Shown: in pieces, positions 1,475-7,453 of the stretch | Position numbering within the stretch: position 1 is the first letter of the stretch | Layout of the letters: each line of letters starts with the position of its first letter | Virus record (IMG/VR): IMGVR_UViG_3300017753_000076 | Coordinates: 1-26,965 of that record | Reading direction: 5' to 3' (one strand) | From: a virus | Length of the DNA stretch: 26,965 nucleotides | Notes under the pieces: model-generated | Told to the model about the DNA's origin: nothing | The model's input: the letters and a program-made list of their open reading frames with translations, nothing else | Database searches by the model: none | Position numbers and translations under genes: made by a program

Positions 1475-1828
1475 TCAAAATGGTATTTCATCATCTTCAA
1501 TAGAATTGCTAGCAGTGACTTGGGGTTGCTGCACTACTGGTTGCGCTGCCTGTTGCATCGGTGTGTTTGGAAACAACGGAAACTTAGAAACAGTAGGCCA
1601 CATCTTAGGATCTTCTCCGGTTCTGTGCTGCAAGTTTACGTAGACTGAGATCCTGTTATCAATAATCATTGACTTAACTTGCTCAAGCATAGCGTTTGCC
1701 TGTTGATCGAACTGCTTATCCTTGGGTACGTTTAGCCAAGCTGATGCTCTCATTTCCACTGGCTGATTGTTAGACATAAAACCATCTATTGTTAGGGTTT
1801 TAACGCCAAGTGTAGGTTTATTGCTCAT
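1475..1828 (-). CDS. Single-stranded DNA-binding protein (SSB-like)
   Basis: This 117-residue protein has a compact N-terminal region of beta-strand character (residues 1-80, including MRASAWLNVP and RISVYVNLQH), a Gln/Pro-rich linker (QQAAQPVVQQPQV), and a very acidic tip ending EDDEIPF. That tip is the classic SSB tail that recruits repair and replication enzymes. The start has AAGGAG upstream at good spacing and overlaps the annealing-protein gene by 11 bases. In the operon it would coat the single strands made by the exonuclease and hand them to the annealing protein. The core is too diverged to name a subfamily from sight. The assignment rests on the tail, the size and the neighbours. 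Confidence 0.75.
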   Translation of the reverse strand: MSNKPTLGVKTLTIDGFMSNNQPVEMRASAWLNVPKDKQFDQQANAMLEQVKSMIIDNRISVYVNLQHRTGEDPKMWPTVSKFPLFPNTPMQQAAQPVVQQPQVTASNSIEDDEIPF

Positions 1829-2435
1829 ATGAGTTCTCCTTTTCTGTAAACCTTTGTATTAATCTTGCGTGTAGTTTCGGGTAGTCTTGTTTCAAAGCAT
1901 CAAGGTGTTCGTCAGGAGTGTTCCTGTCTATATCGTGTAATGCTTTTAGTGTTGGTGCTGCATCGTATTTAGCAATCAAACCCTTGCACCAATCAATTGC
2001 TTTCTGTTGATCGGGCAATGCCTTTGTTTCTTTTTGCTGTGGTTTTGGTGCAGGTTTTTGTGGCTCAGAAGCTTGTGGTATATCCTCACCTGCATAGATG
2101 TATAGGCCAAGCCCATGCAAAGCTATAGCTTTAACTAAGCAGCGCATCCTGGCATCGTTTACATCTCTGGCGTTTGGATTGGATATAGCGTTGTTTGTAT
2201 TATTCATAACAGGTAGCCACATCATATGTGTTAGCCCTTCAATGGCAACACTGACACGTACCTCTCGCGTTCCATCAGGATACACAACATCATCATGCAC
2301 CTCAAAAGAAGCATCAGGATACTTACTCTTTACTTCTTTCCAAGCCCATGACCAAGATAGGTAAGAGAACCTGCCCTTCTTTTCTATTTTATCACCGACA
2401 TTTATGCCGACTAGTTTATTAAATACGTCTGTCAT
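1818..2435 (-). CDS. Single-strand annealing recombinase, Sak3/DUF1071 type
   Basis: This 205-residue protein has an N-terminal stretch reading FSYLSWSWAWKEVKSKYPDA, the hallmark of the DUF1071/Sak3 family of phage annealing proteins, which have a Rad52-like fold and pair complementary single strands. The conserved core covers about residues 1-120 and includes NARDVNDARMRCLVKAIALH and GLGLYIYAGEDIP. After it come a Pro/Gln-rich linker (about 120-140) and a helical C-terminal part. The gene shares one base with the exonuclease stop (TAATG) and overlaps the SSB-like gene, so the three proteins are probably made together as a recombination set. The GGGAGA before the ATG serves as ribosome site. 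Confidence 0.85.
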   Translation of the reverse strand: MTDVFNKLVGINVGDKIEKKGRFSYLSWSWAWKEVKSKYPDASFEVHDDVVYPDGTREVRVSVAIEGLTHMMWLPVMNNTNNAISNPNARDVNDARMRCLVKAIALHGLGLYIYAGEDIPQASEPQKPAPKPQQKETKALPDQQKAIDWCKGLIAKYDAAPTLKALHDIDRNTPDEHLDALKQDYPKLHARLIQRFTEKENSYEQ

Positions 2436-3681: not shown

Positions 3682-4011
3682 ATGGGAGGTAAAGCAGCTA
3701 GAACAAAAGGCGCATCGTTCGAGCGCGAGGTGGTGAACTGGCACAAGGACAGAAACGTAGAGGCAGAGCGTATTCCGTTGTCAGGAGCTGTCAAAGGTAA
3801 TTATTCGGGTGATCTAAAGATTGGCCCAGAACAGGCTTTGCTTGCTGAGTGCAAGCGGAGAGCAAGAGCATGGCAAGATTTATATGATGCTCTTGACCAG
3901 GATGGAAGTGACATGCTTTTCATCCGTAAAGACAGGGAGCGCACGTTAGTTGTGCTTCCATTAGAAACATATGAAGCATTTTTGGAGTGGATTGGATGGA
4001 TGAAGAAATGA
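3682..4011 (+). CDS. Holliday-junction-resolvase-like PD-(D/E)XK nuclease
   Basis: This 109-residue protein has the order of motifs expected for small archaeal-Hjc-like or VRR-type nucleases of phages: KGASFEREVV with Glu-14, then PLSGAVKGNYSGDLKI with Asp-44, then LLAECKRR with Glu-56 and Lys-58. These residues form the metal-binding centre of the PD-(D/E)XK fold. The length fits a single nuclease domain. It follows the Cro-like gene by three bases. A role in resolving branched recombination or replication intermediates is likely and fits the exonuclease and annealing genes on the other strand, although a different structure-specific activity cannot be excluded from sequence alone. Confidence 0.8.
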   Translation: MGGKAARTKGASFEREVVNWHKDRNVEAERIPLSGAVKGNYSGDLKIGPEQALLAECKRRARAWQDLYDALDQDGSDMLFIRKDRERTLVVLPLETYEAFLEWIGWMKK

Positions 4012-4215: not shown

Positions 4216-4503
4216 ATGCCATATACACAAGAAGGTGTCGGATACCAAAAAACAGATACTAGTCGTGCAGCAGCACGTAGTAATTACCCAGGCAAGCTAA
4301 GTGCGCGTGACCGTGTGTTGCAGTTGTTACAGAAAATGCAGTTGTCTTTAACGTCACATGAGATTGCTGATGTACTACAAATACCAGAGGTTACAGTGCG
4401 TCCAAGGTTGTCGGAGTTGCGTAACGATGACAAGATTGTTGACAGTGGTCAGCGTGGAGAAACGCCCTGGGGCAAGAAGTGTATCAAGTGGAGATCTGCA
4501 TGA
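4216..4503 (+). CDS. Winged-helix DNA-binding protein (95 aa)
   Basis: AAGGAG precedes the ATG at good spacing. Residues 28-80 fit a winged helix: SARDRVLQLLQKMQLSLTSH, then EIADVLQIPEVTVRPRLSEL as helix-turn-helix, then RNDDKIVDSGQRGETPWGKK as the wing. The opening part, QKTDTSRAAARS, is a short polar tail often seen on phage proteins of this type. It is the fourth gene of the rightward early operon, and its stop overlaps the next ATG (ATGA). Such small winged-helix proteins in phages are usually assumed to be regulators or replication accessories. No target can be read from the sequence. The fold assignment is fairly safe, the role is not. Confidence 0.74.
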   Translation: MPYTQEGVGYQKTDTSRAAARSNYPGKLSARDRVLQLLQKMQLSLTSHEIADVLQIPEVTVRPRLSELRNDDKIVDSGQRGETPWGKKCIKWRSA

Positions 4504-4736
4504 GATACGGTGGTTTAGAAGTAAAGGGCAGTGAGGCAAACTTTGTATTCTACAGCCCAGACGGACAAAGGTTTTATGAACCTGCAAAGAAATGCCCTGA
4601 CTGCGATGCAAGCGGTCAGGTAGACGGTGAAGAAGCTGTTATTGATTATGTCAATGGCGGCTCACTTGTGGAGATTGTAGCAACATGCCTGGAGTGTGAA
4701 GGGCTTGGTTTTGTAGTGGATGATAGTGCAGATTGA
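4500..4736 (+). CDS. Zinc-knuckle protein (78 aa)
   Basis: The ATG at 4500 has GGAG seven bases upstream and overlaps the previous TGA; a GTG at 4479 is less likely. The 78-residue protein has two CxxCxxxG knuckles, KCPDCDASG (Cys-32, Cys-35) and ATCLECEGLG (Cys-63, Cys-66), which together would hold one zinc ion as in DnaJ-type or rubredoxin-like ribbons. Between them lies an acidic stretch with EEAVIDYVNGGS. The stop is joined to the transglycosylase-like gene by TGATG, so the two are co-translated. It may be an accessory protein for that enzyme, but this is inferred only from position. Confidence 0.72.
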   Translation: MRYGGLEVKGSEANFVFYSPDGQRFYEPAKKCPDCDASGQVDGEEAVIDYVNGGSLVEIVATCLECEGLGFVVDDSAD

Positions 4737-5416
4737 TGCTTCATTATCACGGAACACCCCTTACTCCAAGAAGAGAACTATTAAAACTTGCAGGTAAAAA
4801 TTTTTGTGTATCGTTTGCTAGGCCAGACGATGCTGATTGGTGCTTAACTCATGGTCAATCAATTATGTGGGATAATGGTGCTTTTTCGCTTTACACTAAA
4901 GGCCAAGCAACAGATTGGAATAGTTATTATAAATGGTTAGAGCCAAGAATTGGACATCCAAACTGGGCTGTTGTTCCTGATGTTATTGATGGTGATATTA
5001 ATGATAATTTAAAATTAATTTATGAATGGCCGCACAGAAAAGATTGCGCTGCTGTTGTGTGGCACATGTCAGAACCTATAGATCATTTATTAAATTTAAT
5101 TGATTTAGGTTTTGCAAAGGTTTGCTTTGGTAGCAGTGGCGCTTACTGGCAGGTAGGTTCTGAACTATGGGAGCGCAGGTGTGATGAAGCATTTAATGCT
5201 ATTGCTAGTCGAAGCAGTATACCTTGGATACACATGTTAAGAGGGTTAGCATTGTCTGGTGACAGATGGCCTTTTGCATCAGCTGATAGTGTTAACGTAG
5301 CTAGAAATTTTAAAGACAGTAACCATTGCCCAGAAAGAATGGCAAGAAGAATTGACGCAATACAATGCCCAATGTTTTGGCATGTGCGTCCACATCAAGA
5401 GGAGATGATGATATGA
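4736..5416 (+). CDS. TGT-like transglycosylase, DpdA-like (7-deazaguanine DNA modification)
   Basis: This 226-residue protein looks like a compact member of the tRNA-guanine transglycosylase barrel superfamily, in which phage DpdA proteins exchange guanine in DNA for a 7-deazaguanine base. Candidate active-site motifs in order: WDNGAFSLY (Asp-46, matching the DSGGF-type loop), VVPDVIDGD (Asp-82), VVWHMSEP (His-110), VCFGSSG (131-135), IHMLRG (His-166) and FASADSVNVARN (Asp-184). It is shorter than bacterial TGT (about 370 residues) and lacks an obvious four-ligand zinc site, as expected for a diverged viral form. The best support is its neighbour: the next gene, overlapping by four bases, encodes a queuosine-precursor-type transporter. 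The family is inferred from motifs and needs a profile search. The DNA substrate is inferred from the phage context; tRNA is the alternative. Confidence 0.68.
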   Translation: MLHYHGTPLTPRRELLKLAGKNFCVSFARPDDADWCLTHGQSIMWDNGAFSLYTKGQATDWNSYYKWLEPRIGHPNWAVVPDVIDGDINDNLKLIYEWPHRKDCAAVVWHMSEPIDHLLNLIDLGFAKVCFGSSGAYWQVGSELWERRCDEAFNAIASRSSIPWIHMLRGLALSGDRWPFASADSVNVARNFKDSNHCPERMARRIDAIQCPMFWHVRPHQEEMMI

Positions 5417-5934
5417 TTAAATGGATTTCACTTACAGGCTATATTTCAACAATACCTATAGCTAATTGGATGATTGGAAACGTAGGAACTTTCTGCGTTC
5501 CACAAGGCCCATGCGTTATACCTGTGTTCCCAGGCGTTACAGCTCCAAGCGGAGTTTTAATGATTGGTCTAGCTCTAGTGTTACGTGATGCAGTGCATGA
5601 AACATTAGGAGCTAAATGGGCATTGATTGCCATAACAATAGGTGCCGCGCTGTCTTACATTTTAGCTGATCCTTTTATTGCCATTGCAAGTTTAGTTGCG
5701 TTCGCTGTTTCTGAATTGTCTGACTTTGGCGTTTATTCAAAGCTTAGAGCTAAGAGTAAATTGATAGCAATGGCTGCTTCTGGGATTGTAGGCTCTGTAA
5801 TTGACAGCGCATTATTTCTTTGGATCGCATTCGGTTCATTAGCGTTTATTGAAGGCCAAATAATAGGTAAAGTTATGATGACATTTGCAGCTGTAGCAGC
5901 GTTAAAATTGTATACGGTGACTTACAAAAAATAG
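5413..5934 (+). CDS. YhhQ/VUT-family transporter for queuosine precursor
   Basis: The start at 5413 has AGGAG upstream and overlaps the transglycosylase-like stop (ATGA). The 173-residue protein is almost wholly hydrophobic, with about five to six membrane segments. It shows the signature of the VUT (YhhQ) family: LVLRDAVHETLG, then ILADPFIAIASLVAFAVSEL, SDFGVYSKLR, then ASGIVGSVIDSALFLWIAFG and FIEGQIIGK. Bacterial YhhQ imports preQ0/preQ1, the precursors of queuosine. It would sit in the host inner membrane after infection. Joined to a DpdA-like gene, it suggests that the phage raises the supply of 7-deazaguanine for modification of its DNA. The family call is strong; the exact substrate is inferred. 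Confidence 0.88.
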   Translation: MIKWISLTGYISTIPIANWMIGNVGTFCVPQGPCVIPVFPGVTAPSGVLMIGLALVLRDAVHETLGAKWALIAITIGAALSYILADPFIAIASLVAFAVSELSDFGVYSKLRAKSKLIAMAASGIVGSVIDSALFLWIAFGSLAFIEGQIIGKVMMTFAAVAALKLYTVTYKK

Positions 5935-5945
5935 GGGATTGACAA

Positions 5946-6374
5946 ATGCCACTAAAGAAGTACGCTAACGCGAGGCCGACAGGCCGAGATAACACTAGTG
6001 ATTACAGTGTTAGTACTAACAGTGATTACAGTGTTAACAGTGATTACAGTGAAACTATAAATAATATACATAATAACACTAGTGATTACAGTGCTATTAA
6101 CAGTGATTACACTGTAATACAGTCGAGTGATTTGATTTTGCGTACGTTGACTAAGATGTCTCCTGCTTACAAAAAGGGGAAGCAACGTAGGCAAGCTGAT
6201 CCGTTAGCCTGGCGCATTGATAAACTCATACGTAGACTTAGGCCTATGTTGTCAGCTGACAGGTTTCTTGAAATTACAAAAGAGTTTGCAACACTCGACA
6301 CAATGGAAAAGGTTGCACTTGCTCACAAGCTCGAGGAGTGGCTTAAAGTGGCTCATGGCGGTAAGGGTACATAA
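5946..6374 (+). CDS. Ser-Asp-Tyr-Ser repeat protein spanning iteron-like DNA repeats
   Basis: This 142-residue protein has an unusual first half: from residue 17 the motif SDYS(V/A/E) or SDYT recurs five times, separated by Asn/Thr-rich linkers. The second half (residues 65-142) is basic and helical, including YKKGKQRRQADPLAWRIDKL and LSADRFLEITKEFATLDTME, and could bind DNA. The repeats have the same codons each time (AGT GAT TAC AGT), which suggests selection on the DNA as well as the protein. A gene for an origin-binding protein that carries its own iterons, as lambda O does, would look like this, but no homology to O is claimed. It ends the rightward early operon and meets a terminator hairpin. 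Confidence 0.7.
   Translation: MPLKKYANARPTGRDNTSDYSVSTNSDYSVNSDYSETINNIHNNTSDYSAINSDYTVIQSSDLILRTLTKMSPAYKKGKQRRQADPLAWRIDKLIRRLRPMLSADRFLEITKEFATLDTMEKVALAHKLEEWLKVAHGGKGT
5997..6114 (+). repeat. Five iteron-like direct repeats (AGTGATTACAGTG) with palindromes
   Basis: AGTGATTACAGTG occurs exactly at 5997-6009, 6021-6033, 6039-6051 and 6081-6093, and once with a single change (AGTGATTACACTG) at 6102-6114. Starts are 24, 18, 42 and 21 bases apart, all multiples of three because they lie in a gene. Copies 1 and 4 share a longer 21-bp match (5989-6009 and 6073-6093). Between copies 1 and 2 lies the perfect 14-bp palindrome TGTTAGTACTAACA (6008-6021), and between copies 2 and 3 TGTTAACA (6032-6039). 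This arrangement resembles a phage origin or a partition/regulator array. Confidence 0.85.
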
Positions 6375-6745: not shown

Positions 6746-7453
6746 CTATTTATTTGCTTCAAATACAGCTCTTGCAAAGCCGCGAGGCGTTGCGCTGCGT
6801 ATGTTTTTAGTTTTCTGTGATTTACCACCAAGTTTTAAATGTTGTGTTGAATACCCGTCTTGTGGCTTAACAGGTAGCTTGTCAGGCATAACAAAATTAT
6901 CACTAGTCCAAAGGCAGGTTTTCTTTGGATAAGCGTCATATGGTGCGATGTAGTCAGGCCACTTTGGATGGCTTGATTGATCGCTCGGTATGTATCCACC
7001 ATACTCATAGGGGTGAAATCTATAATCAGGCTTTCGCCACAAAGTTGATAAAACACTTACTGGGTTTTCCACAAAATATGGCACATTTAATTTTTCAAAT
7101 AATTGAGAACACCACAACGCATAATTTGCGGCCTTTTTTTGAAAGAATGGATCTTTTTCACGCTTACTTGCAAAATGCGAGCTGCCGCTAACGCTTAAAT
7201 CTGTGCAGACCGGCCATGCCATACCAAAAACTACATCTTTATTTTTACAAGCTCTTAACAAACGGTTTATATTTTCTTTGTCGTGCAAATCTATTTTACA
7301 AAACACAATAAAACCGCCGCTATCAAATAGCTTATGTTCTCGCCCTGTGTGCTGTATGTCATAAGCATAGCAACGGTATCCAGCTTCTGCCCAAGGTATC
7401 AAAGCCTCTCCGGTGTAGTCGTAAAGACTTATAACGTATTTACTATTTGTCAT
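6746..7453 (-). CDS. C5-cytosine DNA methyltransferase-like protein
   Basis: This 235-residue protein carries the order of C5-methyltransferase motifs in short form: SLYDYTGEALIPWAEAGYRC as the AdoMet-binding motif I with AYDI (Asp-32) as motif II; FGMAWPVCTDLSVSG with Cys-83 as the catalytic loop (Pro-Val-Cys in place of the usual Pro-Pro-Cys); VENPVS with Glu-129 as the ENV motif; and RSATPRGFARAVFEAN as the C-terminal motif X. The target-recognition region is very small, about 80 residues with YPKKTCLWTSDNF. This compact family is common in phages as an orphan methyltransferase with no cognate nuclease. It would mark phage DNA at cytosine, probably against restriction. Site specificity cannot be read. 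It overlaps the upstream gene by 11 bases, with GAGGGG as ribosome site. Confidence 0.82.
   Translation of the reverse strand: MTNSKYVISLYDYTGEALIPWAEAGYRCYAYDIQHTGREHKLFDSGGFIVFCKIDLHDKENINRLLRACKNKDVVFGMAWPVCTDLSVSGSSHFASKREKDPFFQKKAANYALWCSQLFEKLNVPYFVENPVSVLSTLWRKPDYRFHPYEYGGYIPSDQSSHPKWPDYIAPYDAYPKKTCLWTSDNFVMPDKLPVKPQDGYSTQHLKLGGKSQKTKNIRSATPRGFARAVFEANK

Follow-up and report, generated by a model that had tools for sequence, protein, structure and literature searches.

A compact DpdA-type transglycosylase and a YhhQ-type transporter as a recurrent two-gene module of environmental phages, and a candidate import-and-insert route to 7-deazaguanine DNA

Among the described phages with 7-deazaguanines in their DNA, those coming closest to the locus considered here are Pantoea phage MED16 and Salmonella phage 7-11, neither of which has a preQ0 pathway (PMC8306585, PMC6884629). 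LC-MS detected dADG in the virion DNA of both, where it amounts to about 0.13% of G in the case of MED16 (PMC8306585) and 0.02% in that of 7-11 (PMC6884629); inhibition of restriction enzymes by the dADG of MED16 was minimal, and the DpdA of this phage gave a 99% HHpred match to bacterial TGT (PMC8306585). Mycobacterium phage Orion, which has DpdA only, contains no modified base (PMC6884629). Precursor salvage by such DpdA-only phages was proposed in 2019, and the Hutinet 2019 survey described phage YhhQ as being without correlation to any group. Transporters of the preQ0 type are found in EC151/Seurat phages (PMC8310023), and YhhQ in haloviruses HCTV-1/16 (PMC8651126), in both cases alongside a preQ0 pathway, while in bacteria a Q-precursor transporter (QPTR) can be fused to tRNA TGT (PMC11130926). 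No report of a stand-alone transporter-DpdA pair as a recurrent module was found in the open-access papers searched.

The window, i.e., the whole stretch of DNA analysed, is a complete IMG/VR record, a linear fragment of 26,965 bases from a marine phage, with genes for terminase, head-tail adaptor, capsid and tail proteins. Since the nearest relatives of its tail protein are from Pelagibacter phages (about 55% identity) and prophage relatives are mostly from Alphaproteobacteria, an alphaproteobacterial host is likely. Two overlapping plus-strand genes, confirmed as the sequence-only reading had described them, encode a predicted compact DpdA-type (TGT-superfamily) base-exchange enzyme of 226 aa (4736-5416) and a Vut_1/YhhQ (QPTR)-family membrane transporter of 173 aa (5413-5934). 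The ATG of the latter overlaps the DpdA stop as ATGA and, together with a GAGGAG ribosome-binding-like site, occupies positions 5399-5416 (+), from which overlap we infer translational coupling of the two genes. The reading favoured here, to which we would assign a probability of about 0.7, is that of an import-and-insert unit by which phage DNA is modified without preQ0 synthesis genes: the YhhQ-type protein would be placed in the membrane of the infected host cell and import external preQ0 (or preQ1), the compact DpdA would then swap guanine in phage DNA for the imported 7-deazaguanine by the TGT mechanism with an aspartate nucleophile, and the product would be dPreQ0, or dADG after hydration, leaving the phage with modified DNA and no need to encode preQ0 synthesis itself. 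DNA would presumably be the target, with the identity of the base and the protection from host nucleases being equally presumptive parts of this proposal, and the mere 0.02-0.13% of G modified in related phages weighs against it.

As far as the enzyme is concerned, all five motifs singled out in the sequence-only reading (DNGAFS, VPDVIDG, FGSSG, HMLRG and ASADS) are present, and the DpdA-like assignment made there is borne out by a match to PHROGs family phrog_887, "queuine tRNA-ribosyltransferase" (E 2.4e-41), and by 37% and 34% identity to the DpdAs of MED16 and 7-11, respectively, both of them homologues from phages in which 7-deazaguanine DNA has been demonstrated. Relatives of the 226-aa protein occur in 102 phage records, and D46, D82, H110, G132, H166, R169 and D184 are invariant across 58 sequences, MED16 and 7-11 included; all of these but R169 are putative active-site residues. 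Going by motif order and TGT numbering, with no significant alignment, D46, D82 and D184 may be the equivalents of TGT D102, D156 and D280. AlphaFold2, given an alignment of 45 relatives, returned a TIM barrel with a pLDDT of 83 in one of five models (the others being poorer), and in this model most invariant residues lie at or just past the C-terminal ends of strands in the manner of TIM-barrel enzymes (D46, H110, G132 and H166 at strand C-termini according to DSSP, D82 just past one). It is highly improbable, in our opinion, that the pair is a passenger without an effect on DNA, consisting of an inactive enzyme and a hitchhiking importer: such a state would have a precedent in Orion, which carries DpdA without any modified base (PMC6884629), but the putative active-site residues are fully conserved and the pair recurs in divergent phages.

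A TGT fold was the point on which, as set beforehand, the transglycosylase assignment was to stand or fall, and the assignment was not refuted. All named matches of the window model at E<0.01 in the viral fold library were queuine/queuosine tRNA-ribosyltransferases (E 6.5e-6 to 5e-3), belonging to Arthrobacter, Microbacterium, Mycobacterium and Dinoroseobacter phages, whereas the PDB search yielded generic TIM barrels (best E 0.018) with no TGT among the matches listed, so that the TGT-type fold is supported via viral homologues only. PDB phmmer and profile searches with the enzyme family did not find TGT either, a shallow hhalign comparison of the family with the TGTs of host genomes gave a non-significant probability below 1%, and no Pfam family, PF01702 included, was matched at E<1. 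An invariant Zn-site cysteine set is likewise absent from the family (C24 is the sole invariant one in alignment A3 among those checked, and it varies in the wider set). The marks of a canonical tRNA TGT, a PF01702 match and a Zn-binding C-terminal part, are thus lacking in this protein of only 226 aa; the supported assignment is a DpdA-type transglycosylase that shares its family with the enzymes of MED16 and 7-11.

The same observations bear on the proposal that enzyme and transporter serve as an auxiliary metabolic unit raising queuosine-type modification of host or phage tRNA, and not of DNA, during infection. This would agree with the PHROGs label of the enzyme family and with the fusion of Q-precursor transporters to bacterial tRNA TGT (PMC11130926), but a PF01702 TGT is already encoded in 35 of the 37 prophage-bearing genomes, TGT is much longer than the phage protein, which has no invariant set of Zn-site cysteines, and the relatives MED16 and 7-11 have modified virion DNA (PMC8306585, PMC6884629), which makes a role in tRNA modification unlikely.

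The 173-aa protein passed the cut-off of PF02592 Vut_1 (44.3 bits, E 3e-11; cut-off 27.2), as anticipated for a VUT/YhhQ-type transporter by the sequence-only reading, and missed that of TIGR00697, the queuosine precursor transporter family (40 bits, E 3.5e-10; cut-off 50.95). It also matches phrog_4899 (E 1e-36), and hydrophobic stretches span most of its residues 33-169. Judging by this family membership, its substrate would be preQ0/preQ1.

Enzyme and transporter constitute a genuine, widespread and conserved two-gene module that is common in environmental phages; the earlier description of the cassette as unusual was wrong in this sense, while the coupling of the two genes proposed along with it, already visible in the ATGA overlap, extends to their relatives. 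Of the 80 closest IMG/VR enzyme loci, 75 have a transporter from this family no more than 1 kb away, encoded on the strand of the enzyme gene in every case and either before or after it. Isolates with the pair include Rhizobium phage RHph_N3_2 and Pseudanabaena phage Pam5. After dereplication (enzymes below 85% identity to each other, at least 1.5 kb of flank required) a transporter lies within 1.5 kb in 41 of 42 loci, a rate valid for this branch of the enzyme, as the loci sampled were the top-scoring ones. The more mixed loci from bacterial genomes had a transporter in 14 of 39 cases. No adjoining transporter accompanies the DpdA of MED16, SfI, Epa33 or Vibrio phage D105, and the existence of isolates without a transporter (MED16, 7-11, several enterobacterial and Vibrio phages) indicates that it is not essential. 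DpdA-transporter fusions were not seen among the loci examined, and no other neighbour was present in more than 7 of the 42 dereplicated loci, if one disregards the shadow ORFs that overlap the pair or run antisense to it.

Searching from the transporter revealed loci in which the neighbour is a different protein of 200 aa, belonging to phrog_15826, "unknown function" (E 7.5e-61; e.g., L006:5399-6004, L007:5402-6004 and L018:5389-5991, as well as about 80 IMG/VR loci). Of 80 loci with this protein, 60 have it next to a member of the transporter family. Profile comparison of this family with the DpdA family gave a probability of 92-94% (E 2e-7 to 5e-7), and its invariant residues (D37, P70, D71, Q102, G122, H147 and D169) follow the same order as those of the window enzyme. 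In the PDB, its model (pLDDT 93) matches tRNA-guanine transglycosylases with an E of about 1e-4, along with other TIM barrels; hhalign against the TGTs of host genomes was not significant, and PDB phmmer and profile searches with the family did not find TGT. Sequence and model make it probable that phrog_15826 is another compact family of TGT-like transglycosylases, with the same transporter as its partner. Two cassette-carrying phages also have PAPS-reductase-like genes (L006:4163-5002 (+) and L044:857-1657 (-)).

On the transporter tree, at least 11 changes of partner family and 8 changes of gene order were counted, although this is a quick tree with many weak forks, the starred branches of which force 4 to 6 changes per label. 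The phage L128 shares synteny with the window (PDDEXK, wHTH and zinc-knuckle proteins 79%, 53% and 49% identical, respectively); its transporter, 70% identical to that of the window, is paired with the second enzyme and occupies another slot, between the PDDEXK and wHTH genes. This arrangement implies that the enzyme-transporter pair behaves as a movable unit, with the zinc-knuckle gene outside of it. In the window, the latter gene (4503-4736 (+), alternative start 4479; CPDC...CLEC pattern, weak DnaJ_CXXCXGXG match) lies upstream of DpdA and overlaps its start, and its product had been suggested as a possible third component of the system. That suggestion has been abandoned: it is not a recurrent neighbour in the 42 relatives, and in L128 its homologue follows the wHTH gene and is set apart from the gene of the transglycosylase.

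Several other genes of the window deserve mention in their own right. A phrog_757 DNA methyltransferase (6746-7453 (-), E 8e-69) is encoded near the DpdA-transporter cassette and might represent a second DNA modification. Further genes are those for a Sak single-strand annealing protein (1818-2435 (-); PF06378, E 3.6e-48) and a small PDDEXK/RusA-like resolvase (3682-4011 (+)). The ORF at 5946-6374 (+) contains a repeated SDYS motif encoded by a AGTGATTACAGTG-type DNA repeat (5997-6110), possibly an iteron-like site within a gene; a homologue with the same feature is present in L128/L007.

Regarding the origin of the precursor, the earlier claim that no preQ0 synthesis gene is present stands for QueC (PF06508) and QueD (PF01242), neither of which was found by profile search, over the 26,965-base linear fragment, which is not the whole phage. 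The salvage logic of the sequence-only reading gained from a comparison of 50 virus records searched with QueC, QueD and Vut_1 profiles, in which QueC or QueD was detected in 6 of the 23 transporter-free records as against 1 of the 27 that have a transporter (Fisher p=0.03), many of the records being fragments, which weakens the absences. That queC/queD are commoner where the transporter is missing fits salvage replacing preQ0 synthesis in transporter-bearing phages. In Caulobacter phage DMCA, which has no transporter, a QueD-like gene (L046:5708-6004 (+), annotated as 6-carboxytetrahydropterin synthase) stands directly before DpdA and overlaps its start, in the place taken elsewhere by the transporter. 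Genomes bearing prophage copies lacked QueC in 5 of 14 cases having the transporter versus 1 of 23 lacking it (p=0.02), a difference that is only suggestive, as most genomes without QueC are MAGs, and that comes from a small set in which kinship was ignored.

These hosts also provide the grounds for supposing that DpdA uses a host-made precursor, with the transporter carrying another base or vitamin or serving another step: QueC is above the cut-off in 34 of the 37 prophage-bearing genomes (some matches being weak), a Vut_1 protein is encoded in 21 of the 37 (phage copies counted), and the phage transporter is short and divergent. We nevertheless regard such a division of labour as improbable, given the near-perfect and repeatedly re-formed pairing of the transporter with two TGT-like families and its replacement by queC/queD genes. 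In several bacterial genomes, a Vut_1 gene adjoins QueC, sometimes together with a divergent TGT-like protein of 435-445 aa (all three lie within about 3.2 kb in the Devosia locus L257; further cases are L256 and G001:C2:62746-63962), and such clusters may represent bacterial islands for 7-deazaguanine DNA that include an importer.

While the parts of the import-and-insert unit are known, its recurrent stand-alone arrangement is new, as is, likely, the second enzyme family. The 2019 guess of precursor uptake by DpdA-only phages thereby takes concrete form in a widespread gene pair that can be tested, and the published statement that YhhQ in phages correlates with no group is contradicted; phrog_4899 and phrog_15826 gain a likely function, and the dependence of phage DNA chemistry on the import ability of the host becomes a question that can be put to the test. 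A bolder view, which we hold only tentatively and consider rather less probable than its converse, is that there is a large and unrecognised class of phages with stand-alone salvage cassettes (the transporter plus one or the other of the TGT-like enzymes, which would be interchangeable). In these phages DNA modification would depend on environmental 7-deazaguanines and restriction resistance would be nutrient-dependent, and phrog_15826 would be a new type of DNA transglycosylase that might possibly insert another base.

Set against the known systems, the window resembles most the DpdA-only group of Hutinet 2019, MED16 and 7-11 having a short enzyme of the same family and no preQ0 genes; unlike in the window, however, no transporter adjoins DpdA in MED16 and the inspected 50 kb of 7-11 have none in their annotation, the precursor presumably being host-derived in both. 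From clusters of the folE-queD-queE-queC-dpdA type, in which queC and queD are present, the window fragment differs in lacking these two. Seuratvirus/EC151 and HCTV-1/16 share with it a viral preQ0-type transporter linked to DNA 7-deazaguanine genes, but carry preQ0 synthesis, whereas the transporter and transglycosylase of the window stand alone. The YhhQ/QPTR importers (COG1738, PF02592) are the family to which the window transporter belongs by the PF02592 cut-off, although it is shorter than they are and falls below the TIGR00697 equivalog cut-off. Bacterial TGT and the QPTR-TGT fusions (PMC11130926), finally, follow the same transporter-plus-transglycosylase logic, but with tRNA as the target and a long, Zn-binding, fused enzyme, whereas the pair in the window is unfused and its enzyme short.
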